NCBI GenBank assembly: GCA_947476255.1
Contig: CANJPY010000054.1
Span: 1-33,799, forward strand
Reading direction: 5' to 3'
DNA from: Chthoniobacteraceae bacterium
GTDB lineage: Bacteria; Verrucomicrobiota; Verrucomicrobiia; Chthoniobacterales; Chthoniobacteraceae
Length of the DNA: 33,799 nt
The notes below the pieces were generated by a model. It ran no database searches. It was not told the DNA's origin and saw only the letters and a list, made by a program, of their open reading frames with translations. Position 1 is the first letter of the stretch. Each line of letters starts with the position of its first letter. Both the position numbers and the translations under genes were made by a program. Positions 1 to 19,616 of this stretch are shown piece after piece.

Positions 1-148
1 AGTCTGTTGAGGCACGGAGAGGAGGTTGGCCATCCCCGAAAATGCCCTAACCGAGCATCAATCAGGAAACAGCCGCGCCCTCAAGGTGGTGCACTTTGAA
101 CCTAACCGATTTCGAACATTGGTGGTGCACTTTGAGTGTTCACTGACA
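1..148. mobile_element. Probable IS21-family terminus (partial)
   Basis: Two copies of GGTGGTGCACTTTGA lie 36 bp apart (85-99 and 121-135), and the stretch ends in GTGTTCACTGACA at 148. Multiple internal end repeats and a terminus reading TGTCAGTGAACAC from outside inwards resemble IS21-family ends. The transposase and helper genes (istA/istB) would lie left of the window. No convincing istB tail can be read in the first 100 bases, and the opposite end is not visible, so the family call rests on the terminal repeats only. Confidence 0.45.
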
Positions 149-299
149 CTTAAGCATCTCTCCTAATCGCATCTGATGCCGGTGGTGGCTCGCCAATGAT
201 GGCTCGTATTCGGGCGGGTTGATCTCGCAAAGCCTCGACCAACCCGACCCGAATCCGAGCCATCTGTAGTCCATCTGCCATCCTAAACACCCAAGCACG

Positions 300-400
300 C
301 GAGCTTCGGCCCCCGGGAAGCTCGCCGCCACGCTTCCCGGGAGCCTCAGTGCACGACAAGCTCGCCCCCCACAGGGGGGATTAATGGTGGCTATGCCACC
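300..400. repeat. Cluster of palindromes (REP-like)
   Basis: Three hairpins follow one another. CCCGGGAAGC at 312-321 pairs with GCTTCCCGGG at 332-341 around a 10-nt loop. Six C at 365-370 pair with six G at 374-379 around ACA. GGTGGC at 386-391 pairs with GCCACC at 395-400 around TAT. The last two form a double-hairpin module that recurs inside the helicase gene near 7168-7199. No gene in 149-383 is convincing. The function is unknown; it could be a mobile palindromic repeat or a structured site of the element. Confidence 0.6.
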
Positions 401-726
401 CTCGCAACCAAGCACATCACCCGCAAGCGGCCCCTGGACGCTCGCAAGCTCGCAACCAAGCACAACACCCGCAAGCGGCAGCACGAGGCGGCTCCGTTCC
501 GTGCTCTTGCCCCCACGCGTGCAGCACGCCAGTTGTGGGTGCGTGCCCCTCACTCCGCCGCCACCCAAGCACGCCAGCCGCAAGCGGTACCACGATGCGG
601 CTCCACTCCGCTCACTAGCCCCGAGCCAGACAAGCCGGCATCGGCGCGTTCCCCTCGTTCCGCCGCAAGACCAAGCACGCAAGCCGCAAGCGGATCTCAC
701 AACGCTCGCAAGCTCGCAGCCAAGCA
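401..726. repeat. Degenerate direct-repeat array
   Basis: A 30-bp unit at 401-430 recurs at 449-478 with one difference. A 23-bp core (CCAAGCAC..CCGCAAGCGG) recurs at 565-587 and 671-693. ACGCTCGCAAGCTCGCA occurs at 438-454 and 702-718. Spacing between copies is irregular (48, about 116 and about 106 bp), unlike CRISPR. An open frame across 384-797 on the plus strand is proline/serine-rich and merely reflects the repeats, so it is not called a gene. The array could be a recombination-prone or replication-associated region. Confidence 0.6.
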
Positions 727-853
727 TGCCACCCTCTGACGGATTCAAAAACACTGAAGACAGCTCACAAGTGCCCCTGTCTGTAGTGTACTCGTGAGCG
801 CTGAGGACTTTGGTTTGATAGGCACGGTTCGGGGGGAAGCCAAGAACACATAT

Positions 854-936
854 TGGCTTCGCCATGGCTTTGGATCCGGCTCCGCCGGTAGAGATGGAGG
901 GCAAGCCCTTGGGAAGCTTTGGGCTCCGCCCAAAGC
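854..936. repeat. Three GGC-NNN-GCC hairpins
   Basis: TGGC-TTC-GCCA (854-864), CCGGC-TCC-GCCGG (876-888) and GCTTTGGGC-TCC-GCCCAAAGC (916-936) are consecutive perfect hairpins with three-base loops. They share the GGC-loop-GCC core with the hairpins at 386-400 and 7187-7199. The stretch 798-1201 has no other recognisable content apart from a small hairpin (GGGAGA 1142-1147 with TCTCCC 1152-1157) in the leader of the next gene. Confidence 0.6.
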
Positions 937-1201
937 GTACGCACTCTAAGGGTAAACCCGTATTAGCACCTGCGAAAATCCACTAGAAGGGAAGGTCCGC
1001 CGCTGCTTGTCCTGGCTTGTTTGCGCCGCGTCATGCATCAGCGCCCACGCTTTCACCGGACGTGTAAAGCCATCTCCATGAGTGTTTTATATGCCAAAAC
1101 ACTTCAAACCTTCCCCACTCGAAATCCGTAGCAATAGTGAAGGGAGATGTTTCTCCCCGAGTCGGTTACAACATAAAAAGCCCATTAAAGGAACCCGAGG
1201 T

Positions 1202-2317
1202 ATGAACACGCAGGACATCATCAGCAACGAACAAGTCAGCAGTCTCGAACGCATCGCCGCCATCGTCGCCAAATCCGGCATGGGCGGTTTCAAAACTCCA
1301 GAGCAGGCCACCGTCGCCATGCTTCTCGCCCTCGCCGAGGGCATCCCCCTGGGCCGCATCATCCACGAATACCACGTCATCAACGGCCGTTTGTCACTCC
1401 GCAGCGAGTGTATGCTCGCCCGTTTCCAGAGGGCGGGGGGGATCATCAAATACATCGAGCACAGTGACGTCTGTGTCAGCGTCACCGCTTCCCATCCCAA
1501 GGGCGGCGCCCTCACCGTCACCTGGACCCTTGAGCGGGCACGCAAAGCCGGCCTCACCAGCAATCCCACCTGGCAGAAACACCCCGCCGCCATGCTCACC
1601 GCGCGCGCCATCGCCGAAGCCGTCCGCGCAGTCTACCCAGCCTGCCTCTCAGGCATCATCACCGAGGACGAGGCCGTTGAGATCACCCCTTCATTCACAC
1701 CCGCGCCCACGCGCGAGCCAATCGCCGATGTTGTCGCTCGCCACGGTAACGGGGCTCACCAGCTCCCAAACGAACTGGAACCCGTCACAGATGAACCCGC
1801 GACCGTACCAGAACCGCACGAATACAACATCGACCGCATCAACGACACAGCCACCACAGGTGGATTATCCACACGCCGCACCCGTAAATCCAAACCCTCA
1901 CCCACTCTCGATTCCAGCGAGGCACTCGCCTCTGAAATCACAAAGCGCATGGCAGAACTCAACGTCCCCGAACCAGTCATCCCTGCCCACGTTGCCAAAC
2001 AACCCCAACACAAAGACGACGACACCAACGACTACGCCGAAGCACCAGAGGCCCCGGAACCCAAACCGCCAGTCCCATACACACCGCGTTACGCGAACTC
2101 TAAATCCCCCATCGCCGACGGTCCGCTCTCCGAAATCCTCGCCCCATTCAACGAGCAGGACGTCAACGCCTTCATGATCTCCCGCGGCCTGCTCCACAAG
2201 GGCCAAACGCACCGGGACGCTCAACCCTACGTCGTCGACCGCATCCGCAATCAATGGGAATCGTTTGTGACCAAAGGCAACTTCCGTCCCGCAACCCCCT
2301 CCTCAGCAATGGCCTAG
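1202..2317 (+). CDS. RecT-like single-strand annealing protein, copy 1
   Basis: A protein of 371 residues. Residues 1-160 look like the phage RecT-type recombinase family: a helical start, then GGFKTPEQA, a conserved HVING segment, a cysteine- and arginine-containing SECMLARFQRAGG stretch, a VTWTLERARKAGL strand-helix and the RAIAEAVRAVYPACLSG helix near 145-160. Proteins of this family anneal single-stranded DNA during phage or plasmid recombination. A proline-rich linker (about 165-300) leads to a short C-terminal helical domain (about 305-350) that recurs in the second copy at 3890. The frame is open from 1082, but ATG at 1202 is preferred because its start lines up with that paralogue. 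The gene is first in a plus-strand run and ends 36 bp before the zinc-ribbon gene. The RecT call is a family resemblance by eye. Confidence 0.65.
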   Translation: MNTQDIISNEQVSSLERIAAIVAKSGMGGFKTPEQATVAMLLALAEGIPLGRIIHEYHVINGRLSLRSECMLARFQRAGGIIKYIEHSDVCVSVTASHPKGGALTVTWTLERARKAGLTSNPTWQKHPAAMLTARAIAEAVRAVYPACLSGIITEDEAVEITPSFTPAPTREPIADVVARHGNGAHQLPNELEPVTDEPATVPEPHEYNIDRINDTATTGGLSTRRTRKSKPSPTLDSSEALASEITKRMAELNVPEPVIPAHVAKQPQHKDDDTNDYAEAPEAPEPKPPVPYTPRYANSKSPIADGPLSEILAPFNEQDVNAFMISRGLLHKGQTHRDAQPYVVDRIRNQWESFVTKGNFRPATPSSAMA

Positions 2318-2353
2318 CACTAAACCAGCGCACCACCCCGCGCTTCCTTTTTT

Positions 2354-2584
2354 ATGCGCGACTACATGCTCGAAGACCCCGCGGCCGATATGGACGAACC
2401 GCCAATCTGCCCCGAGTGCGGCGAATTCATGGAAACCCAAACCGACGCCTCCTGGGACGAAGATTCAAGCCGCCTCGTTTTCGACGGCTCCTCCTCCTCC
2501 TGCCCAAACGCAGACTGCCCCTCACACTCCATCCCCCCAACCACTCCCCACACAGACCCGCACACAGGCCCCGCGCCCTTCTAA
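2354..2584 (+). CDS. Small zinc-ribbon-like protein
   Basis: A protein of 76 residues containing CPECGEFMET and, about 30 residues on, SCPNADCPSH. These two CxxC-like or CxxxxC knuckles suggest one structural zinc site. The N-terminus is acidic and the tail is proline/threonine-rich. The gene fits tightly between RecT copy 1 (36 bp) and the next gene (4 bp), which supports it being real. Small zinc-ribbon proteins are common in phage early regions, where many bind nucleic acid or host proteins. No specific function can be assigned. Confidence 0.55.
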   Translation: MRDYMLEDPAADMDEPPICPECGEFMETQTDASWDEDSSRLVFDGSSSSCPNADCPSHSIPPTTPHTDPHTGPAPF

Positions 2585-2588
2585 CCCT

Positions 2589-3074
2589 ATGATCATGCAC
2601 CAAATCACGCTCTCGCCCGACGCCCCCGCCGCTACCATCCCCTACGGCCAAGGCCTCATCCGAATCGTCGCCGAGCCCCCCGACACCCTGGCGCTCAATC
2701 ACGCCGCCATCAACGTCCACAAACTCAACCCCGAAATGCGCGTCCGAAAATACATCCTCACCGAGGAACTTTCGGTGACCATGTACGACGGCTCCCTGTA
2801 TTTCACCATCGAAGACGCTCTCGCCCAGAACGCTACCGTGTCCTGGACTACCACCTACGGCTATCACAACATCAAATCCGCTCTCGCCAACGCTGAAGCC
2901 GTCGCCTCCATGACCGACCCCGACGGCGCCCGCAAAATCATATGCCGCATCAAAATCAACCGCGACATCCAACTCCGCGAATGCTCCCTCGCCGACGCAC
3001 ACGACACCATCCGAGAAACCATCGACCGCCTCAATGACGAGGCCGCCGAAAAAGCCAAACTCGCCAAACGCTGA
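2589..3074 (+). CDS. Hypothetical protein of the RecT region
   Basis: A protein of 161 residues that I do not recognise. It has no signal peptide or membrane segment. The first half alternates short hydrophobic strands (ITLSPDAP, GLIRIVAEPP, LYFTIEDAL) and the last 45 residues are predicted helical and charged, ending EKAKLAKR. ATG at 2589 lies 4 bp after the zinc-ribbon stop, and a second ATG two codons later is an alternative start. A strong terminator follows 22 bp after the stop, so this is the last gene of the first transcription unit. C-rich codon use matches its neighbours. Confidence 0.6.
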   Translation: MIMHQITLSPDAPAATIPYGQGLIRIVAEPPDTLALNHAAINVHKLNPEMRVRKYILTEELSVTMYDGSLYFTIEDALAQNATVSWTTTYGYHNIKSALANAEAVASMTDPDGARKIICRIKINRDIQLRECSLADAHDTIRETIDRLNDEAAEKAKLAKR

Positions 3075-3096
3075 CCCTGCCCCCCTTCTCTCCCCG

Positions 3097-3132
3097 CCCT
3101 CCCTAGCCTCCGGCTAGGGAGGGTTTCTTTTT
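3097..3132 (+). terminator. Rho-independent terminator
   Basis: A perfect 12-bp stem (3097-3108 with 3112-3123) with a three-base loop is followed by TTTCTTTTT. It closes the unit 1202-3074 and separates it from the repeat-rich region that follows. Confidence 0.9.
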
Positions 3133-3159
3133 GCCCCTACAGCACAACCCATAGCCGGT

Positions 3160-3345
3160 ATGTCCAAAACAATTTCTTTTCAACACATGGACAACGGCGA
3201 ACAAATCCAAGCGCACCTCACCGAGCCTCGAACCAAGGATCAGGCGCCCCTCGCGCGCGATACTGCGCGAAATCGCCGTGAGCCTCAGACTTTTTTTGCA
3301 CTTTTTCCGGCCCCCCTCAGCCACACCAACGGTGATGAACCCTGA
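3160..3345 (+). CDS. Doubtful small ORF
   Basis: An open frame of 61 residues with no recognisable domain; it is hydrophilic and has no cysteines. It lies just after the terminator and runs into the first GATGGAACC-type boxes. There is no recognisable ribosome-binding site and no paralogue in the window. It may be a chance frame in a control region. Confidence 0.2.
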   Translation: MSKTISFQHMDNGEQIQAHLTEPRTKDQAPLARDTARNRREPQTFFALFPAPLSHTNGDEP

Positions 3346-3637
3346 GGTAAACCTGATGGAACCCTGATGGAACCGATGGAACCCGTGGAACCTCACTTTT
3401 GCAAAGTCCCATCACTTAACTCGTTCAAGATCAGTACATATTTTAAGAAGATGGAACCATGGAGAAGATATACCCATTTGTATTGGCAGAACTATACGCC
3501 TCCAAGTCCGCCCCCCAGACTAATGTTCGAGTTCTACTCCATGGTTCCATCTTTTCCCCAAACTGAACCCAGCCTGCACTTTAAGTGATAGAACCCCTCC
3601 GCAAAACAGGTCCCATCGAGGTTTTTAAGGTACCATC
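3333..3637. repeat. Iteron-like GATGGAACC boxes, candidate origin or control region
   Basis: GATGGAACC occurs at 3355-3363, 3366-3374, 3375-3383 and 3450-3458, with a variant CGTGGAACC at 3384-3392 and GATAGAACC at 3587-3595. The inverse, GGTTCCATC, occurs at 3543-3551, with single-mismatch forms at 3609-3617 (GGTCCCATC) and 3629-3637 (GGTACCATC). Local sequence is more AT-rich than the flanking genes, for example 3430-3480. The gap from 3075 to 3889 otherwise contains no supported gene. The position between the two RecT-like genes and upstream of SSB, primase and helicase fits a replication origin bound by an initiator, or an operator for an element regulator. Which of these it is cannot be decided from sequence alone. 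Confidence 0.55.
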
Positions 3638-3889
3638 ATCCCCTTTTCCGGGTGGGCCACACTCCATCCACAAACCGCCGCTCGATTAAGAAATGCGCCT
3701 AGCCGATCCCATCCAATATGAACCCGAACCCTCACATCCGTCCCCAATTCAAACCCGATTCATACCCCGACAGCGGTGTTATCAGAAATCCTCCAAACCA
3801 CAGAGAACCTCACCGCTGGATCGCAGTGTCAAAACGCCTTCACCTTCCCCGTAATTCCTCAAATCCAAAAACACGACTTCAGACAATTT

Positions 3890-4657
3890 ATGCAACTTAC
3901 TTTAACCAACAACGAGTGTGAGGGTATTGACCGAGCCGCCTCTTGGACCGTTGCTGCCGGCTTCGGCGGCTTCAAAAACCCCGAGCAAGCCAAACTCGTC
4001 ATGCTCCTTGCGCTCAGCCAGGGCGAACACATCGGCCGAGCCGTCCACGACTACCACGTCATCAACGGCAAACTCGTCCTCAAGTCCGAGTCCATGCTCT
4101 CCCGCTTCCAGCACTCCGGAGGCACGATCCGTTACACGCAGTACACGGACGAAGCGGTGACCGTTGAAGCGACGCACCCCGCCGGGGGCACCCTCGCAGT
4201 CACCTGGGACATCGCCCAAGCCAAACGCGCAGGGCTTCTTGGCAACCAAGTCTGGGCCAAACACCCGCGCGCCATGCTTAAAGCACGCGCCGTCACGGAA
4301 GCAGTGCGCGCTCTCTACCCAGCCTGCCTCACCGGAGTCATGACCGCTGAGGAAGCCATCGAGATTCAGGCTGTGCCTGTTCAGGCTGTGTCCGCGCCGG
4401 AGGCAGAAACACACGAAGTGTGCGAAGCGTCTGTTTTCGATCAACTTGACCAGCTTTTCTTCGAATCCGACCATCTGGAAATCAACGACTTCCTCATGCG
4501 CCGCGGCAAAATCTCACAGCCCCAAACCTACCGGGACCTCGACCCCGCCTACGCCAAACTCATCCTCAAAAATCCCGAACGCTTCTTCGACGCCATCGAA
4601 AAACACGTCACGGAAAACGCCTCCGCACGCCCCGCACTTGCAGCCCCTAACAACTAA
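3890..4657 (+). CDS. RecT-like single-strand annealing protein, copy 2
   Basis: A protein of 255 residues and a clear paralogue of the gene at 1202. GGFKNPEQAKLVMLLAL, YHVINGKL, ESMLSRFQHSGG, VTWDIAQAKRAGL and RAVTEAVRALYPACLTG align with copy 1 without gaps; about half of the positions look identical. The proline-rich linker of copy 1 is nearly absent, but the C-terminal helical module (INDFLMRRGKI..TYRDLDP) is kept. ATG at 3890 is preferred because it aligns with the start of copy 1; the frame is open from a GTG at 3776. The SSB-like gene follows after 20 bp, a pairing expected for annealing recombinases. This copy sits downstream of the iteron-like boxes, so it may be controlled by them. 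Confidence 0.68.
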   Translation: MQLTLTNNECEGIDRAASWTVAAGFGGFKNPEQAKLVMLLALSQGEHIGRAVHDYHVINGKLVLKSESMLSRFQHSGGTIRYTQYTDEAVTVEATHPAGGTLAVTWDIAQAKRAGLLGNQVWAKHPRAMLKARAVTEAVRALYPACLTGVMTAEEAIEIQAVPVQAVSAPEAETHEVCEASVFDQLDQLFFESDHLEINDFLMRRGKISQPQTYRDLDPAYAKLILKNPERFFDAIEKHVTENASARPALAAPNN

Positions 4658-4677
4658 CCCCACGGGGCGCACCTCAT

Positions 4678-5256
4678 ATGATCACTCGTTCTAAACCCAT
4701 CGCCGACAACATCGGAGAAGCCTCATTTTCCACGCGTGCCGAAATCCCGGACGGCGTCCACATCGCCAAAATCCTCACCGCCGATGAAACCCAAACCCTC
4801 ACAGGCATCCCCTACCTCGACCTGAAACTGGAAATCGCCGGGCACGAAAACGACAAACGCATCTACACCAAAATCTGGCTCTCCAACGGCAAGGGCAACG
4901 ACGACCGCAACTATGATGCGCTGCTCTCCTGCGGCCACATTCCAGACCACGCCGGCGCCCTCCCTGACCCCGCCGCTGAATTGTTCGTACACCGCGCCTG
5001 CAGGGTTCGCATCGGCACCAACAAACGCGGGTACAAAGACGTGATGTTTTGGATCGCACCCAAGGTGGAAAAAACCACCCCCACCCAGGCGCCTACGCCA
5101 CTGGTGGCCACGCCTCAAGCCATCACGCACGACGTTCTCGCAAAACACACCTCTGCTTCCAACGGCTCCAGGCCCCCATTCAAACGCAACGCCACTGGTG
5201 GCCCCACACGTTCCGCGCCCCCGCAAACTGTCGACGACGACGACATCCCATTCTAG
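4678..5256 (+). CDS. SSB-like single-stranded DNA-binding protein
   Basis: A protein of 192 residues. Residues 20-125 form a strand-rich segment (GVHIAKILTADE, YLDLKLEIAG, RIYTKIWLS, RACRVRIGTNKRGYKDVMFWI) resembling the OB-fold-like DUF669 proteins of phages. A disordered proline/threonine-rich linker leads to the C-terminal tip DDDDIPF. That tip is the signature by which bacterial SSBs recruit partner proteins, and it strongly supports the call even though the OB fold itself is divergent. It lies 20 bp after RecT copy 2 and upstream of the primase and helicase, so it probably coats single strands during element replication and annealing. Confidence 0.75.
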   Translation: MITRSKPIADNIGEASFSTRAEIPDGVHIAKILTADETQTLTGIPYLDLKLEIAGHENDKRIYTKIWLSNGKGNDDRNYDALLSCGHIPDHAGALPDPAAELFVHRACRVRIGTNKRGYKDVMFWIAPKVEKTTPTQAPTPLVATPQAITHDVLAKHTSASNGSRPPFKRNATGGPTRSAPPQTVDDDDIPF

Positions 5257-5346
5257 CCCACTAGTGGGTTTCTGCTTCCAGGCCACCCGGCGGCAGAAAA
5301 CACCCGAAGGGTATGCCGCTACGTGACTGTGCCGCTACGTGTCTGT
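5257..5346. repeat. Palindrome and 16-bp direct repeat between SSB and primase units
   Basis: CCCACTAGTGGG (5257-5268) is a perfect palindrome right after the SSB stop and is followed by a short T-rich stretch. GTTTCTGC and GCAGAAAAC form a further near-perfect stem around 5268-5302. Two copies of a 16-bp unit beginning GCCGCTACGTG lie head to tail at 5315-5330 and 5331-5346 with one difference. This could be a terminator-attenuator plus an operator for the downstream replication genes. Confidence 0.5.
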
Positions 5347-5391
5347 GACACCTCCGACCACCCCCGGAGTCGTTTTCACTCAACTTTCCTT

Positions 5392-5706
5392 ATGAACGAC
5401 TTCCACAACGACATTCTCCCGCTCTGGGAGCTCAGCCTGCAACTTGGGGTCAAACACCGTGGCGCTGCCACGCCCCGCGCGAAATGGCTGGAGCGCGCAC
5501 GCTCCCTGGCCCGCCAGATCGCCGCAGCCCAGGGCTGGGTCACTGTAGACTGCATCCGATCCCACTTGGCCCCACCCCAAGACGGCGACCCCCGCATCAT
5601 GGGCGCCATTCTGCACCGCTCCGAATTCGAGTGCGTGCGCTACATCCAATCCACCCGGTCCGAAAGCCACAAACGCCCCATCGGCGTCTTCGTCCTCAAA
5701 AAATGA
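5392..5706 (+). CDS. Small winged-helix-like protein of the replication module
   Basis: A protein of 104 residues. The segment LARQIAAAQGWVTVDCIRSH followed by an IMGAILHRSEFECVRYIQSTRSESHKRPIGVF stretch has the layout of the small phage proteins that sit before replication genes: a helix, a turn, then a beta wing with a new-versus-old strand pair. ATG at 5392 is chosen because it follows a pyrimidine-rich leader (TTTCCTT) like several starts here. The stop overlaps the primase start in ATGA, implying translational coupling. It may be a DNA-binding accessory; the fold is inferred only from this pattern. Confidence 0.55.
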   Translation: MNDFHNDILPLWELSLQLGVKHRGAATPRAKWLERARSLARQIAAAQGWVTVDCIRSHLAPPQDGDPRIMGAILHRSEFECVRYIQSTRSESHKRPIGVFVLKK

Positions 5707-6770
5707 ACTCCATCGCAACCTGCAAGCAACGTCTCCCACTCCCCGAACTCCTCGTCCGCCTCGGCCTCTTTGACCAGGCCCCCAAAGCCGGCAACCACAA
5801 ATGCCCCCTGCATCACGAGCGCAACGGTGCCTCCTTCGGCATGGACCCAAAAAATGAAGGCTGGGTCTGGATTTGCCGCGGCAAATGCGCCACCGGCGGC
5901 GACGAACTCTCGCTCCTCGAAACATTCCTCGGCCTCGACACCAAAGCCGCCATCCGCGCCTACGAACACCTCGCTGGAATCGGTGGCCTAGCCAGCTTTA
6001 GCCCCCCTTGTGGGGGCGCCAACGCTTTCAGTCCCGCTTACCACAGGCCTCTCATTCCCAATCCGGCCCCAGTGATCCTCAAACCCATGCCGATCGAACT
6101 ACCCCACGACCTCCACAAGGGCTCCTTCGAAGAATGCGCCACCGTCTCACAACTCCGTGCTGTCCCGGTTGAAACCACATTGCTCATGAGCAAAGCCGGA
6201 CTGCTCGCGTTCGCCAAAGTCGCAGGCTTCCACTCATGGATCGTGCTGGATGACACCCGGCTTATTGCAGAAGCCCGCCGCATGGACGGCGCGCTCTACC
6301 CGCAATGGGGCAGCCTTGCAGAACGCAAGACACACACCCTCAAAGGCTCCCACAAAAGTTGGCCCTTGGGACTCACCCAAGGCACCGGTCCCATCCTGCT
6401 CGTTGAAGGCTCGGGCGATTTCGTCGCCGCAAATTACTTCTGTGCTTTCACCCACCGCACGCCTTCCCCATGGACTCCGGTGGCCATGCTGGGCGCGAGC
6501 ATCAAGCAACTCGACCCCGAAGCGGCAGAACTGTTTGCCGGACGCCATGTTCGTATTGTTCCGCATGTCGATGCGGCGGGAAAAAAAGCTGCGACGCAAT
6601 GGGCCAATCTCCTCACAAAACAAAACTGCGATGTCGACGGCTTCGATCTGTCTGGTCTCACCAAAACCGACGGCAACCCAGTCAAAGACCTGAACGATGC
6701 CACCTCGTTCACTGCCACCCATGGCGACGCACTCAGGCAACTCTTCTCCCCTACAGGGGGTATACTATGA
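5703..6770 (+). CDS. DNA primase with CHC2 zinc finger and TOPRIM domain
   Basis: A protein of 355 residues. The N-terminus carries the primase zinc ribbon: C34-P-L-H37 and C58-RGK-C62 followed by GGD. The TOPRIM domain is visible as ILLVEGSGDFVAA, with the catalytic Glu near 235, and VRIVPHVDAAG, with Asp near 290. Such proteins make RNA primers for replication and are typical of phages, satellites and integrated plasmids. ATG at 5703 overlaps the previous stop; the same frame is open further upstream, but only as a shadow of that gene. The stop overlaps the helicase start (ATGA). A palindrome GCCCCCC-TTGT-GGGGGC at 6001-6017 lies in-frame in a proline/glycine linker between zinc and TOPRIM parts, and another (CCCC-TACA-GGGG, 6748-6759) lies in the last codons. 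Confidence 0.85.
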   Translation: MNSIATCKQRLPLPELLVRLGLFDQAPKAGNHKCPLHHERNGASFGMDPKNEGWVWICRGKCATGGDELSLLETFLGLDTKAAIRAYEHLAGIGGLASFSPPCGGANAFSPAYHRPLIPNPAPVILKPMPIELPHDLHKGSFEECATVSQLRAVPVETTLLMSKAGLLAFAKVAGFHSWIVLDDTRLIAEARRMDGALYPQWGSLAERKTHTLKGSHKSWPLGLTQGTGPILLVEGSGDFVAANYFCAFTHRTPSPWTPVAMLGASIKQLDPEAAELFAGRHVRIVPHVDAAGKKAATQWANLLTKQNCDVDGFDLSGLTKTDGNPVKDLNDATSFTATHGDALRQLFSPTGGIL

Positions 6771-8323
6771 GCGAGCGCATTTTCCGCTTCGACAACACAC
6801 CACCCACTCCACCTCCCGATCCAGCCTCGGACCAAACCCAATACACACTCAATTCCCGCGACAGCCCTCAAACGTTATCGTCGTTTTACTTCCGAAAAAA
6901 ACACCTCAACTTTCTCCAACAATATCCTGACGGCACCATCGTGCGCTTGAGCCGCGAAGACGTTGTCTCCGTGCTCAAGGCGGAATGCGCCTTCGACGCC
7001 CAACGCAACCTCGACCAGTTTTTCTACAACCTGCGACACTCCAATGCCGTCGATTACGACGGACCACTGCCAGGCTACCGGCTCGGCCTCCATCACAGCA
7101 ATGGCCAAGCCCTGTTTTGTTCCTCCGCTGCACAACCCGTCAAAGCGCACTCTTCGCAGCCTCCGCCCCCCGGAGGGGAATTGAATCCGGCTGTGCCGGC
7201 TTCACCCGCGCCCTCCGAAACAGGATGGCCAATCATCGCCGAACTCCTCAAACGCCTCCTTGTCACCCCCGAGTCCGGCGACCTCCAGCGGCTCACGCTT
7301 CTCGCCCATCTGAAGGTTGCGCACGCCACACTCTTGCGGTGCCTCGCCGAACCCAACGCCACCGAAACACCCACCAATGTGTCACCCACAAAACGAAACG
7401 TACGCCCCCAACAAGCAATGGCCCTCTGCGGACCCGTCGCCAGTGGCAAAACATTTCTGTTCGAACAAATCATCGCCCCCATTCTAGGCAACCGCATCGT
7501 CGATGTTTACAAAGCCTTCTGTGCGTCCTCCGAAGGTTTCACAGGCGAGCTCCTCAACGGAGAGGTCTGGAAAATCGACGACCACGCCGGCTCCACGCGC
7601 CCCGAGACCCGCCGCACATTCAGTGCAAACATCAAATCCTATCTGTTCTCGGGCAACGTGAGCATTCATCCCAAAAAACTCACCCCCATGACCTTAACTC
7701 CGTACGGCCGCCTCTTTATCATCTGCAACGATGAGGACAAGGACATGCTCATCCTTCCGGACATTACAAACGACCTGCTCGATAAAATGATCGTCCTGCG
7801 AACCCTCTCCGCCCAGTCCCCCATGCCCAGTGACACAGACGAAGAACGCGAAGCCTACCAGACCACGGTCCAGGCCGAGCTCCCCCACCTCATCGCCGCC
7901 CTCGAAGCCTGGGAAATCCCAGAATTCATGCGCGCCGCCCGCACAGGTGTCGCCAGTTACCACAACCCCGTAATTGTTCGAAAACTCGAAACCCTCCATC
8001 CCGAGGTCCTTCTCATTGAGATGATTCACCAAGCCATCGACGACGAGACTCTCATCCAGCCCCCGGAAACACTATGGCAGGGAACTGCTACCGACCTCCA
8101 CCGAACACTCACCAATTCCGCCAGCCTGTCCTTCGCCCGGTCCGCGTCCGAACTGCTATCGAGCCCCAAAGCCACAGGTATGTACCTGGGCAAAATCACG
8201 GAGGCCTCCGAACATTTCGAGCACCGCTACCAGCTCTGTGTCCGCCACGGCCCGCATCGCCGCGGCATCCGCACCTACCTCATCCACGCTACAAGCGCCC
8301 CAGCCGAGACTCCGCTGCTATGA
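6767..8323 (+). CDS. SF3/DUF5906-like replicative helicase
   Basis: A protein of 518 residues. The ATPase part shows Walker A GPVASGKTF with Lys 228, an acidic WKIDDHA strand end (Asp 271-272) as Walker B, and a Walker C/sensor-like GRLFIICNDED with Asn 321. This is the arrangement of superfamily 3 viral and plasmid helicases. The N-terminal 110 residues contain a conserved helical segment (about 35-100), followed by a linker near 131-150 that is encoded by a double-hairpin repeat (7160-7199). The start ATGA overlaps the primase stop, so primase and helicase are probably made in fixed ratio and act together. No polymerase is encoded nearby, so the element would use the host replicase. Confidence 0.8.
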   Translation: MSERIFRFDNTPPTPPPDPASDQTQYTLNSRDSPQTLSSFYFRKKHLNFLQQYPDGTIVRLSREDVVSVLKAECAFDAQRNLDQFFYNLRHSNAVDYDGPLPGYRLGLHHSNGQALFCSSAAQPVKAHSSQPPPPGGELNPAVPASPAPSETGWPIIAELLKRLLVTPESGDLQRLTLLAHLKVAHATLLRCLAEPNATETPTNVSPTKRNVRPQQAMALCGPVASGKTFLFEQIIAPILGNRIVDVYKAFCASSEGFTGELLNGEVWKIDDHAGSTRPETRRTFSANIKSYLFSGNVSIHPKKLTPMTLTPYGRLFIICNDEDKDMLILPDITNDLLDKMIVLRTLSAQSPMPSDTDEEREAYQTTVQAELPHLIAALEAWEIPEFMRAARTGVASYHNPVIVRKLETLHPEVLLIEMIHQAIDDETLIQPPETLWQGTATDLHRTLTNSASLSFARSASELLSSPKATGMYLGKITEASEHFEHRYQLCVRHGPHRRGIRTYLIHATSAPAETPLL

Positions 8324-8772
8324 CCCAGAAACTCTACACACCCGAGCAGGTGGCAGAATACCTCGGCATCTCTGTCTACACAGTATCCGGACTGATCCGC
8401 AGCAAACAACTCGGCTGCTGCCGGGTTGCCGGCGTCAAACGCATCACTGAAGGACAACTCGAACAGTACCTCAAGCTCGCAGCATCCCGTCCGCCCCGCA
8501 AACATCGTCGCCTCCCTCCGATCCCCGACGATCTCGGTCCTGTATGGCAGCAACTCTCAGACATGGCGCTTAAGCACCAACCGCTCCTCGCCCCATTCAT
8601 GGCAGAGGCCACGCTGTTAGGCATCAACAAGCAGGCGCTGACCGCCACGGTAAACGCGCACACGACAGGCGCGGCTGAAGCGCTCAACGTCAAGCCGAAC
8701 AGGCTCGCTCTGCAGAGGCACCTCCGCAACCTGTTTTGTTACAAACTCCAGCTTTGCGTAACCCGCTTATAA
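8320..8772 (+). CDS. Helix-turn-helix protein with DnaX-tail-like C-terminus
   Basis: A protein of 150 residues. Residues 1-50 are a MerR/excisionase-type HTH_17 domain: LYTPEQVAEYLGIS, TVSGLIRSKQLG and a wing KRITEGQLEQYL. After a basic linker, residues 72-150 (VWQQLSDMALKHQPLLAPF...HLRNLF) look in pattern like the C-terminal domain of the clamp-loader subunit DnaX. That resemblance is an inference and could be superficial. The start overlaps the helicase stop (ATGA). HTH_17 proteins in such elements act as excisionases, origin-binding proteins or repressors; its place at the end of the replication operon favours an origin or loader role. It is the last gene before the tRNA. Confidence 0.6.
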   Translation: MTQKLYTPEQVAEYLGISVYTVSGLIRSKQLGCCRVAGVKRITEGQLEQYLKLAASRPPRKHRRLPPIPDDLGPVWQQLSDMALKHQPLLAPFMAEATLLGINKQALTATVNAHTTGAAEALNVKPNRLALQRHLRNLFCYKLQLCVTRL

Positions 8773-8914
8773 TCAGAACGCGTCTTTTGCAAACTGCTGC
8801 GCAAGTGCGACTAGACAAGAGTCGACAAAAACACCCCGAAAAACACCCTAAAACCCACGTTTTTGACTCAAATTCGCCTAAATTCCAGAAAATAGGCGAT
8901 CCCCTTATTTCCAG

Positions 8915-8946
8915 TAAAAACATCCCTTAATCGTTGATTATAAGGG
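8915..8946 (-). terminator. Terminator of the tRNA-Ser gene
   Basis: Reading on the minus strand, 9 nt after the tRNA 3' end a hairpin forms between 8946-8936 and 8932-8924 (GATTAAGGG arm, two-base bulge, AAC loop). A run of five T follows (8920-8916). The stretch 8773-8914 contains only short A-rich repeats (AAAACACCC units around 8826-8856) and no gene. Confidence 0.6.
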
Positions 8947-8954
8947 CTAAAGAG

Positions 8955-9042
8955 CGGTGAGGGAGGGATTCGAACCCTCGGTACCTTTAAAGGGTACGGC
9001 GCTTTAGCAAAGCGCTGCTTTCGACCACTCAGCCACCTCACC
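8955..9042 (-). tRNA. tRNA-Ser(GCU)
   Basis: The minus strand folds as a class II tRNA. The acceptor arms GGTGAGG (9042-9036) and CCTCACC (8962-8956) pair, and the discriminator is G (8955), as required for serine. The anticodon stem GCGCT/AGCGC encloses TTGCTAA, giving anticodon GCT. A long variable arm (GTACCCTTTAAAGGTAC) and the TTCGAAT T-loop are present. CCA is not encoded. Its 3' end faces the accessory region, the usual side for tRNA-targeted integration, but no second copy of the 3' end is present in the window. Confidence 0.95.
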
Positions 9043-9227: not shown

Positions 9228-10085
9228 CTAAGGTTTTTCTCCCTGCGTGAAAGCCCCCATCGCGATATCGCCGCGCGGATTCACTCTGACGGCTGAGGCG
9301 CCAGCAGGACCTTGCCTTCCCTCGCCCCCCTGCGGTCCGATTTCACCCGCAGGGCCCTGTGGTCCCTGCAAACCTGCGGGACCCGGAAGGCCTTCACGGC
9401 CAGTCTGTCCAGTCTGTCCAGTCTTGCCAAGAGGTCCCTGTGGTCCCTGTGGTCCCTGTGGTCCCGGAGGCCCAGTCAGCCCAGGACTCCCCTCAACGCT
9501 GCTCAAAATCTCCAATACCGCGTGAGAACCCTCCAGCATTTCCTTGGCCTGGAGGATAACCGCCAGCGAATTATCCGCCGCGATGAGGGCTATCCCGTTA
9601 TTGGAAACGCTTCCATCAACCCAGTCGCGGACGAGTTCAGTAACATCGAAATTCACCCACTTCAGAGAATCAGTGACTTTGGCACTGGCATAAGCCGCAC
9701 CAGTTTCCGGATTCTGGAGCAGTGCGGGCGCGATCGAATCACTCAGGAGCGACTCTTTCCAAGGTTGTTTAACCGCAAAAACCTGCATTGTACCGGGCGT
9801 CAAAACGCGATTGACGAAAACCGAGAGCGTTGCTTTTGCGACGCCTGACCACATGACTTTTGGAGGGAGAGCCGGCCCAAGTTCAAACTGCAGCCACGTT
9901 CGTTTGCGCGCATTGATCCGTCCTTCGACATAAAGGCCCCCCAAGGGGCTCATTACTGACCTGGAAAGAGCCGGAGCAGCACAAGTGCACGTATCTTGGG
10001 AAAGGACGGCCCGTGCGCCGTGCATATCGGGAGCTAAAAGTCCTGTCCCGAGAATGTAATACAATGCTTTGTCGTATAGTTTCAT
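9228..10085 (-). CDS. DNRLRE-type protein with collagen-like tail
   Basis: A protein of 285 residues. Residues 45-185 resemble the DNRLRE domain of surface proteins: an [11 protein letters not shown] opening strand, [26 protein letters not shown] and [12 protein letters not shown] in the usual order. Then follow about 22 uninterrupted Gly-X-Y triplets (about 197-262), many of them GPQ or GPA, ending in a short non-collagen tail. Such proteins often sit on cell surfaces or in appendage fibres. There is no clear signal peptide, so the export route is uncertain; the first 25 residues are only weakly hydrophobic. GAGGGGAA lies a few bases before the ATG at 10085. The triplets rest on 9-bp tandem DNA repeats (for example 9433-9465), so copy number may vary between strains. 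Confidence 0.75.
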
Positions 10086-18158: not shown

Positions 18159-18638
18159 CTAAAGGGACTCCAATTCCAGCGCCGCTTTTCGGGCGGCATC
18201 ATAAACCAACTGCAAAGGGCAGCCATGCTCCAAAGCTAATGCCTTGCAGGACTCAAACTCAGGAGCAATCTGCAAAAGAGCGTCTCCCCGATATCCGCGT
18301 TTGACGGAAACCACTCCAAAGCGGGTCTGAACCTCTACGAAATCACGCCTCAACTTCCAGCGCGTCAGCTCGCTCATCCGCAACCCGAAGGCACTTGTAT
18401 GCGTGAAGACGAGGTCCGCGAGTCTTTTTACAGAGGACTCCTCCGCTAGGACGGCCAGAAGCATGCCAGGGCGCTGCTTTTTCATCTGCACGGGCGTCAC
18501 CCACACATCCAGAGCGCCTGCTTCCAAAAGAAGCCCCGTCACATGCCCGACCAACTCTGGACTCAGGTCGTCCAAATTCGTCTCAATCTGCACCACCTTG
18601 TCGTGCTCGTACCCGTCGCCGGTGTCTGCGGGAGACAT
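18159..18638 (-). CDS. larC2: LarC C-terminal part (LarC2)
   Basis: A protein of 159 residues. VVQIETNLDDLSPELVGHVTG, ALDVWVTPVQMKKQRPG, KRLADLVFTHTSAFGLRM and RRDFVEVQTRFGVVSVKRG are the landmarks of the C-terminal domain of LarC. LarC is the CTP-dependent cyclometallase that inserts nickel into the pincer cofactor of lactate racemase and related enzymes. It lies in the same reading frame as larC1, separated by one TAA (18660-18662) and seven sense codons. Restart at ATG 18638 is the simplest way to make it. In Lactobacillus plantarum LarC is likewise encoded in two pieces joined by frameshifting, but here no frame change is needed. Confidence 0.8.
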   Translation of the reverse strand: MSPADTGDGYEHDKVVQIETNLDDLSPELVGHVTGLLLEAGALDVWVTPVQMKKQRPGMLLAVLAEESSVKRLADLVFTHTSAFGLRMSELTRWKLRRDFVEVQTRFGVVSVKRGYRGDALLQIAPEFESCKALALEHGCPLQLVYDAARKAALELESL

Positions 18639-18659
18639 ACCTCTTAAAACACGGCCTTT

Positions 18660-19616
18660 TTAGATTTCGCCAAGCACCGCACGGAGAACATTGGGGCGTG
18701 AGGCCAGATGCCTCGAGCCAACCCCATAACCAATCTTCTGCGCGCGCAGAGTCGGCATTGCACCAAAATGCTTGGAAAACTCCGCAAGAATCGCGGCACC
18801 TGTCGGAGTGATGAGTTCGTGAGTTTCATCCGCCTGACGGAGAGGAATCCCCCCCAGAATCTCCAAGGTGGCTGGAGCTGGAATGGGAAACCGTCCATGC
18901 TGGCACTGAATCCAGCCCCTGCCTTCTTCCAACTCTGAGGCATAGACTGCTTCGACGCCAAGAGCCTCGATGCCCACGCAGGCGCATACGATATCCGCTA
19001 TGGAATCCAAGGCGCCTACTTCATGAAAATGCACTTCCTCAGGAGTGGTCCCATGGATTTTTGCTTCCGCAACTGCTATCCGCTGGAAAATTGCTAGTGC
19101 GCGCTCCTTGACGAAGGCGGACAGTTCACTTTTCTGGATAAGCTCACGGATTTGCGCATGACTTCGCCCGTGCTCTCGACCATGCCCGTGTCCATGGTCG
19201 TGTCCATGGTCGTGTCCATGGTCGTGTCCATGGTCGTGTCCATGGTCGTGTCCATGGTCGTGTCCGTGGTCGTGTCCGTGGTCGTGTCCGTGGTCGTGTC
19301 CGTGGTCGTGTCCATGGTCGTGTCCGTGGTCGTGTCCGTGGTCGTGTCCGTGGTCGTGTCCGTGGTCGTGTCCGTGGTCGTGGTCGTCATGGTCATGAGC
19401 GCATGTTTCGGAATGCGTCGCGCCCTCATGGATTCCAAACTTTACGCCCTCAATTTCGGCACGCTTCTCCCGTTCAAAATGCATGTGGAAATCACCCAGA
19501 TTCAACTTGGAAAGTTCCCACTCAAGAGTGGACGGTTTCACGCCAAGATCACAAAGAGCGCCCACGGTCATGTCACCGCTGATGCCTGAAAAACAGTCGA
19601 AGTATAGGACTTTCAT
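18660..19616 (-). CDS. larC1: LarC N-terminal part (LarC1) with His-rich tract
   Basis: A protein of 318 residues. The family start is clear (KVLYFDCFSGISGDMTVGAL), as are EVHFHEVGALDSIADIVCA, the GRGWIQCQHGRFPIPAPATLEIL segment and ETHELITPTGAAIL near the end. Residues about 72-150 are a tract of repeated His-Asp-His-Gly, far longer than the short His stretch common in LarC, and likely to store or deliver nickel. The gene follows hisA by 23 bp on the same strand, so it is probably co-transcribed with the his genes. It ends at a TAA just where the linker to the C-terminal domain should continue. No larA, larB or larE is in the window. Confidence 0.88.
   Translation of the reverse strand: MKVLYFDCFSGISGDMTVGALCDLGVKPSTLEWELSKLNLGDFHMHFEREKRAEIEGVKFGIHEGATHSETCAHDHDDHDHGHDHGHDHGHDHGHDHGHDHGHDHGHDHGHDHGHDHGHDHGHDHGHDHGHDHGHDHGHDHGHGHGREHGRSHAQIRELIQKSELSAFVKERALAIFQRIAVAEAKIHGTTPEEVHFHEVGALDSIADIVCACVGIEALGVEAVYASELEEGRGWIQCQHGRFPIPAPATLEILGGIPLRQADETHELITPTGAAILAEFSKHFGAMPTLRAQKIGYGVGSRHLASRPNVLRAVLGEI
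19189..19380. repeat. 12-bp tandem repeat, 16 copies, in larC1
   Basis: Sixteen uninterrupted 12-mers of the form TGTCC(A/G)TGGTCG encode the His-Asp-His-Gly tract on the minus strand. The variable base runs A six times, G four times, A once, G five times. Such blocks of identical copies indicate recent slippage or unequal exchange. Units are multiples of three, so changes in copy number keep the frame. Confidence 0.95.

Follow-up and report, generated by a model that had tools for sequence, protein, structure and literature searches.

Two RecT-like annealing proteins in a replication module adjoining a tRNA-Ser gene of a Chthoniobacteraceae bacterium

Introduction

In staphylococcal phages, a recombinase and a single-stranded DNA-binding protein (SSB) act as one unit for replication and the formation of concatemers, and Sak4 replaces Sak when it is supplied with its own SSB (PMC5499656). 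The Sak4 of HK620 binds SSB-covered DNA only when SSB keeps its last six residues (PMC5928155), and in lambda Red beta an annealing core is joined through a flexible link to a small helical C-terminal domain, which binds lambda exonuclease and perhaps SSB (PMC9512822). A C-terminal domain common to Sak4, RecT and Erf-type proteins has also been described, with domain shuffling proposed (PMC8093625). Here, we describe a locus of a Chthoniobacteraceae bacterium in which two RecT-like annealing proteins, RecT1 and RecT2, are encoded in one module together with an SSB, a primase, a helicase and a helix-turn-helix (HTH) protein. The DNA analysed, referred to as the window, is 33,799 nt long and constitutes the complete contig C54 of a 5.15-Mb assembly (G000) in 189 contigs. 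Labels with L, G and C are our own handles for loci, genomes and contigs.

The window shares with 80alpha (Sak) and phi11 (Sak4) the pairing of an annealing protein with an SSB. It differs from them in that those phages have Sak or Sak4 rather than RecT and one pair per phage (PMC5499656); the role of the pair in the window is assigned by comparison. Because of the staphylococcal and HK620 recombinase-SSB precedents (PMC5499656, PMC5928155), RecT2 and the SSB with its DDDDIPF tip may, by analogy, form a replication-restart unit. No report of one phage with two RecTs was found in the literature listings searched.

Results and Discussion

RecT1 and RecT2 are related RecT-like proteins

Nine genes lie on one strand between positions 1202 and 8772, in the order RecT1, 76-aa protein, 161-aa protein, RecT2, SSB, 127-aa protein, primase, helicase and HTH protein (Table 1). 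All nine frames are free of internal stops, and from the 127-aa protein to the HTH protein each gene overlaps the next by 4 nt. A sequence-only reading of the window had proposed two diverged RecT-like proteins, an SSB with a DDDDIPF tip, a CHC2/TOPRIM primase, an SF3-like helicase and an HTH protein, and profile searches, run for Pfam and PHROG with frames slightly longer than the final gene starts, support these assignments.

The cores of RecT1 and RecT2 are identical at 83 of 155 aligned residues, and both proteins match phrog_4171, a family of RecT-like annealing proteins (2.6e-20 and 1.6e-17, respectively), as well as phrog_561 and further PHROGs. Both proteins look RecT-like, and a match to a non-recombinase family, which the sequence-only reading had named as a result that would speak against it, was not obtained. 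Against Pfam RecT (PF03837, cut-off 24), RecT1 scores 25.0 bits and RecT2, just under the cut-off, 22.6 bits; both stay far below the cut-off of the lambda Bet equivalog TIGR01913 (22.7 and 19.5 against 76.95). In a tree of 72 cores, RecT2 is placed inside the RecT1 clade (7 rows, 100/99) and outside a group of 6 RecT1-like rows (97/93). Its branch is long (0.91), and the tree program flags such a placement as unsure. The two genes differ by a dN of 0.44 and a dS of 0.98, the latter near saturation and to be read as a hint. Thirty columns are conserved in 95% or more of 64 relatives; 29 of these are retained in RecT1 and 25 in RecT2. We considered whether RecT2 is a broken copy and rejected this, its frame being intact and 25 of the 30 conserved columns kept, with the dN and dS values as a further hint.

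When a RecT model was run over all loci, every one of the 80 viral loci yielded a single RecT frame; only the window yielded two. These viral loci are the best 80 of at least 578 stretches, each reaching at most about 8 kb to either side, and L056 and L022 among them are the same contig; within the stretch covered, a second RecT was found in none of the 80, in agreement with the earlier view that two RecTs in one module are unusual. The two-RecT pair is a real oddity, seen in a single example. RecT1 gave 159 matches to phage records, all below 60% identity and none over more than 80% of its length, and the helicase and the SSB found no relative among these records. In searches of viral contigs, neither RecT2 nor the SSB, each used alone, found a relative, the helicase aligned with the L017 contig only (and with one match among the genome contigs), and the primase aligned with the L017 contig and with nine loci at 27-38% identity.

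The replication genes are assigned with varying strength. By Pfam, the evidence for the primase is weak, with 13.9 bits for CHC2 and 13.7 for Toprim, each below its cut-off, but the assignment is backed by its PHROG match and by identities of 48% to the L017 protein and 57% to that of an element in genome G002. The helicase passes DUF5906 narrowly (28.0, cut-off 27.6) and is 47% identical to its L017 counterpart, and the HTH protein passes the cut-off of the excisionase-family model TIGR01764 (32.6 against 28.8). An integrative plasmid or conjugative element, one of three origins offered by the sequence-only reading, could account for the primase, the helicase and a repeat cluster upstream of RecT2, which resemble a replicon. 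We nevertheless regard it as highly improbable: no relaxase appeared among the Pfam matches of the module proteins, no search aimed at relaxases having been made, and RecT2 matched only two plasmid records, at 27.5% and 31.7% identity.

RecT2 occupies the place of Sak4 in a related operon

The viral contig L017 (IMGVR_UViG_3300034020_001765, 11 kb) resembles the window in having a tailed RecT1 next to terminase genes and the same order of SSB, primase and helicase. On one strand it carries Sak4, an exonuclease, SSB, primase and helicase in succession, whereas the window has RecT2, SSB, the 127-aa protein, primase, helicase and HTH protein, with no exonuclease seen. Thus, Sak4 and an exonuclease stand where the window has RecT2; L017 also differs in that this operon lies on the strand opposite to RecT1 and in that the contig has no tRNA. 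A model of the Sak4 core (AAA_24) found no match in the window, and RecT2 occupies that place. This comparison of seats is made with L017 as the one collinear relative. The second element compared, in G002 (L176, G002:C40, at tRNA-Asp), resembles the window in its primase (57%), helicase (52%) and HTH protein (45%) and in ending at a tRNA 3' end, but its Sak4, exonuclease and SSB genes lie on the other strand, divergent to primase, helicase and HTH. Queries with RecT1 and RecT2 had no match in the L176 stretch covered.

The RecT1 unit is separated from RecT2 by a gap of 815 nt with a terminator-like hairpin. The 13-pair stem of this hairpin, with 9 G-C pairs, is the longest among 16 such sites in the window, the number 16 itself being not above chance (mean 11.7, standard deviation 3.9). 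Eight of the 21 window matches to GATGGAACC with at most one mismatch fall into the repeat cluster of the gap, other 300-nt stretches holding at most two; promoter-like sites number 2 against 2.2 expected, which is not above chance. The position of the hairpin (3096-3124) and the repeat cluster (3355-3637) between them suggests that RecT1 and RecT2 belong to two transcription units. Since the genes lie in two apparent units, it is plausible, as the sequence-only reading had supposed, that the two proteins act at different stages; for its other suggestion, that one RecT regulates the other, nothing was found in support.

A C-terminal tail is common to RecT1, RecT2 and Sak4 proteins

RecT1, RecT2 and Sak4 proteins have about 55 C-terminal residues in common. 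Among 5554 frames, a tail model built from Sak4 proteins only finds RecT2 (8e-10) and RecT1 (1.6e-7), and a model of four RecT tails finds two Sak4 tails (2e-12 and 2.1e-9); the control on shuffled sequence gave a best E of 0.74. Of 387 genomes from the phylum, six have the tail: it occurs two times in the window and a single time in each of the five others, there always on Sak4 proteins. Among the 80 viral RecTs, 9 carry it, two of these being cut by contig ends. AlphaFold models of RecT1 and RecT2 have low overall confidence (pTM 0.37 and 0.43) with a confident core and helical tail and a disordered linker, a build like that of lambda Red beta. Red beta differs in that its C-terminal domain has an exonuclease to bind (PMC9512822), whereas none is seen in the module, and the two matches of the tail in the PDB (E 1.2 and 1.5) are neither of them Red beta. 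The domain of PMC8093625 likewise sits at the C-terminus of unrelated annealing families; it came from large-scale clustering and is given as a DNA-binding HTH domain, and its identity with the present tail is putative.

If the module works as a unit, the same operon seat would be filled by unrelated proteins, Sak4 in the relative and RecT2 here, bearing the same tail. A further-reaching proposal is that one phage lineage has two RecT paralogues dividing the work, RecT2, expressed from the replication operon together with the SSB, serving replication restart and concatemers and RecT1, next to the packaging genes, serving end joining or repair for packaging, with the shared Sak4-type tail as a portable adaptor to one partner. 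We consider this proposal unlikely; if true, an adaptor tail would let unrelated annealing engines serve one replisome. The shared seat, should the module work as a unit, raises the question of whether the tail, and not the annealing engine, decides which replisome a recombinase serves.

The module is probably linked to tailed phages and ends at a tRNA gene

The six viral contigs closest to the window by RecT1 (L017-L022) point to tailed phages. In five of them (L017, L018, L019, L020 and L022) terminase genes lie divergent to RecT1, the TerL of L022 and the TerS of L017 being named by profile and the other terminases recognised in frame lists; L022 also has a head-tail connector (PF12236), and the sixth contig, L021, has exonuclease, RecT and SSB in a row. 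Because terminase genes adjoin RecT1 in five of the six, the module probably represents the replication end of a prophage of a tailed phage, which may be a remnant. The window's own genome holds incomplete TerL pieces on C86 and C188 (90-95% identity), and on C58 a helicase-HTH end in which the first third of the helicase is missing.

The left flank points in the same direction. Positions 486-562 (77 nt) are 74-75% identical to L017 2431-2506 and L022 8231-8306, which lie in the TerS-RecT1 interval of these phages, and positions 577-666 are 74% identical to C86, the contig with a TerL remnant. We rejected the alternative that the non-coding stretch on the left is host DNA only, part of it matching phage intervals. 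A phage satellite, a small element replicating with genes of its own and packaged in the capsid of a helper, would suit the tRNA site and the lack of structural genes in the 8-kb part seen, but the linkage of RecT1 to terminase in five of the six close viral contigs, the match of the left flank to the terminase-RecT1 interval and the fact that the element is cut by the contig end make a satellite quite improbable in our judgement.

The contig begins inside a repeat. Stretches of 148, 129 and 128 nt that are 99% identical to window positions 1-148 occur at or near the ends of C43, C14 and C123, the DNA beyond the repeat differs on each of these contigs, and a weaker copy is present on C152; we infer that the repeat is an insertion sequence. 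No integrase or structural gene was seen by eye in the frames of the window, profile searches having covered the module proteins and one neighbour. The sequence-only reading had noted the same, but since the contig begins within a repeat, this lack is uninformative. From about position 9228 onward the frames resemble, by eye, ordinary host genes.

On the right, the module ends near the 3' end of a tRNA-Ser(GCT) gene (8954-9042), a boundary marker absent from the sequence-only reading. The distance from the HTH stop codon to the tRNA 3' end is 149-202 nt in six elements: 181 nt in the window (Ser), 202 nt on C58 of the same genome (Val), 166 nt in G002:C40 (Asp), 200 nt in G002:C103 (Ser), 188 nt in G003:C265 (Ser) and 149 nt in G010:C101 (Arg), where the HTH protein is only 34% identical. 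This HTH-to-tRNA layout hence recurs in the host genus at Ser, Val, Asp and Arg tRNA genes, and a related HTH gene adjoins the tRNA at 3 of 10 same-genus tRNA-Ser(GCT) loci (own, G002 and G003). The closest ties are within the genome, the HTH protein being 74% identical to the C58 copy and the element-end DNA 72% identical to C58 over 98 nt; this DNA is alignable across four elements. With the helicase as query, matches were obtained in 15 of 97 related genomes, the own genome among them, many of these matches being distant relatives only. The HTH-to-tRNA layout is not universal: in L046 and L178, which are identical, a helicase end lies 521 nt away from tRNA-Val without an HTH match, L177, L180 and L181 run off contig ends, and L183 contains a fragment; in L181 an integrase adjoins tRNA-Thr. 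The own genome gave 11 integrase matches. Together, the elements document a tRNA-seated family in a poorly studied bacterial genus.

Weighing one prophage against fused remnants

We judge the chances about evenly balanced that a temperate tailed phage is seated at the tRNA-Ser(GCT) 3' end, as an intact or truncated prophage, and that positions 149-8953 are its end for replication and recombination. RecT2 and the SSB would then have taken over the seat of Sak4, exonuclease and SSB, while RecT1 stayed by the packaging genes. This reading draws on gene content, intact frames, the recurring tRNA edge, the terminase linkage in relatives and the shared tail. Among the three origins offered by the sequence-only reading, a decayed prophage is the best, because of the terminase beside RecT1 in relatives and a tRNA end like that of the host-genus relatives, and the satellite and the integrative plasmid fall behind; the prophage may be decayed or only cut by the assembly. 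In agreement with that reading, none of the collections searched yielded a complete prophage that includes the module.

Several observations weigh against this assignment. No other genome was found with both RecTs. In structural comparisons, the solved RecT structure 7ub2 was the first match of RecT1 (E 0.24) and the sixth of RecT2 (E 0.34), without significance in either case, and a tail model built from RecT1 only reaches the RecT2 tail weakly (0.0016). The Sak4 of HK620 is given as 25.6 kDa, roughly what an ATPase core would weigh by itself, and so is probably tail-less, yet it works with SSB (PMC5928155); a Sak4 of about core size working with SSB means that the tail may serve a partner other than SSB. 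Because of this size and the weak match between the two tails, both the prophage assignment and the adaptor proposal are graded lower. The window SSB aligns with the SSBs of four relatives at scores of 28-49, compared with 49-273 among those four, although it shares phrog_378 with two of them; given this remote similarity, recombinase and SSB may have been exchanged together as one set. At the right edge, 7 of the 10 same-genus tRNA-Ser loci show no match to HTH, helicase or integrase (two queries) in the 941-1500 nt covered, and a second copy of the attachment site was not found, a 15-base pattern matching only two other tRNA genes, Ser(GGA) and Met. Portal and exonuclease queries were empty in the own genome, both searches being without a positive control.

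Our chief doubt is whether both halves come from one phage. The RecT1 part (1-3124) and the part from RecT2 to HTH (3333-8953) might be remnants of two related prophages that shared a tRNA hotspot and were brought together by a deletion or by the activity of an insertion sequence, never having been one working unit. The orientation of RecT1 relative to the operon is unlike that in L017, the 815-nt gap with its hairpin falls between the halves, and the genome has other pieces (TerL on C86 and C188 and the truncated helicase-HTH end on C58). Tandem elements are possible, given the integrase that follows the HTH gene in L179, and the 80 viral loci held no second RecT pair. All nine frames are intact, however, and no gene of integrase size appears in the frame list between the halves, where no dedicated search for att-like ends was made; both RecTs also fall into one tree clade, though two related phages would fit this as well. 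On these grounds we hold a fusion possible, with the balance against it.

If the module is the end of a single prophage, its action might proceed as follows. The rest of the prophage would lie beyond the repeat at the contig break. The HTH protein would help excision, after which primase and helicase would start replication, perhaps at the 3355-3637 repeats. The acidic tip of the SSB, and possibly the RecT2 tail, would bring RecT2 to SSB-covered single strands, where RecT2 would anneal strands for replication restart and for the long concatemers needed by terminase, the job that Sak4 and SSB would have in the relatives. RecT1, in a separate unit next to the place that terminase has in the relatives, would act as a further annealing protein, possibly in the repair of ends or in a link to packaging. 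RecT2 itself could have arisen by duplication within this RecT clade or by exchange with a sister phage.

Features of the module and its neighbourhood

Table 1. Features at the left end of the window, with positions, strand and family matches or remarks
Feature	Position	Strand	Family match or remark
End of multi-copy insertion-sequence-like repeat	1..148	.	contig starts within repeat
No convincing gene; 31-nt repeats at 401-743	149..1081	.	part homologous to phage TerS-RecT1 interval
RecT1, 371 aa: annealing core, disordered linker, C-terminal tail domain	1202..2317	+	
C-terminal tail domain of RecT1	2117..2284	+	
Small protein, 76 aa	2354..2584	+	counterpart after RecT1 in L017, 36% over 55 aa
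161-aa protein	2589..3074	+	no family in Pfam or NCBIfam; chance-level PHROG match only
Strong terminator-like hairpin, then T run	3096..3124	+	putative end of the RecT1 unit
Cluster of GATGGAACC-like repeats	3355..3637	.	candidate origin or operator
RecT2, 255 aa	3890..4657	+	
C-terminal tail domain of RecT2	4430..4603	+	
SSB, 192 aa, DDDDIPF tip	4678..5256	+	phrog_378 (4.7e-6)
127-aa protein, GTG start	5323..5706	+	no family match in Pfam, PHROG or NCBIfam
CHC2/TOPRIM-type primase, 355 aa, ATGA-overlap start	5703..6770	+	phrog_47 (1.3e-5)
SF3-like helicase (DUF5906), 518 aa, ATGA-overlap start	6767..8323	+	PF19263
Excisionase-family HTH protein, 150 aa, ATGA-overlap start	8320..8772	+	TIGR01764, phrog_66, PF12728
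Element-end DNA, HTH gene to tRNA	8773..8953	.	partly conserved in related elements
tRNA-Ser(GCT), 3' end facing the element	8954..9042	-	likely attachment-site gene

Within the TOPRIM family, the first residue of the DxD motif is usually Asp; in the TOPRIM part of the primases of the window, L017 and L176, His stands in its place. In L181, a 317-aa protein (8080-9033) without a PHROG match takes the primase place between integrase and helicase. In L179 (4573-6267), the HTH gene is followed by a tyrosine integrase, with no tRNA, an order that suggests either tandem elements or a circular gene order.

The TerL remnant of C86 (L032 5127-5855), located beside tRNA-Phe, has a small in-frame expansion of a GDPA repeat, which the TerL frames of L017-L019 and L022 do not show. 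In G006 (L180), a tRNA-Phe that adjoins an S1-like gene similar to that of C86 is followed by a helicase piece. C188 (L033, 3.1 kb) contains the C-terminal piece of TerL, a transposase-like frame and an integrase fragment (phrog_1, 2.6e-4).

L046 carries the label Akkermansia muciniphila and has the same sequence as G003:C228 from the host genus, which points either to a mistaken label or to a host genus near Akkermansia muciniphila. The tRNA-Ser gene of the window is adjoined by a gene for a collagen-like repeat protein with a CBM96 match (9228-10085, minus strand), and a similar-looking gene lies beside the same tRNA in G002 (L182 6577-7443). Farther to the right, two adjacent frames (18159-19616, minus strand), presumably the two halves of LarC, contain a 12-bp tandem repeat in 16 copies (19187-19382), which codes for a His-rich stretch.

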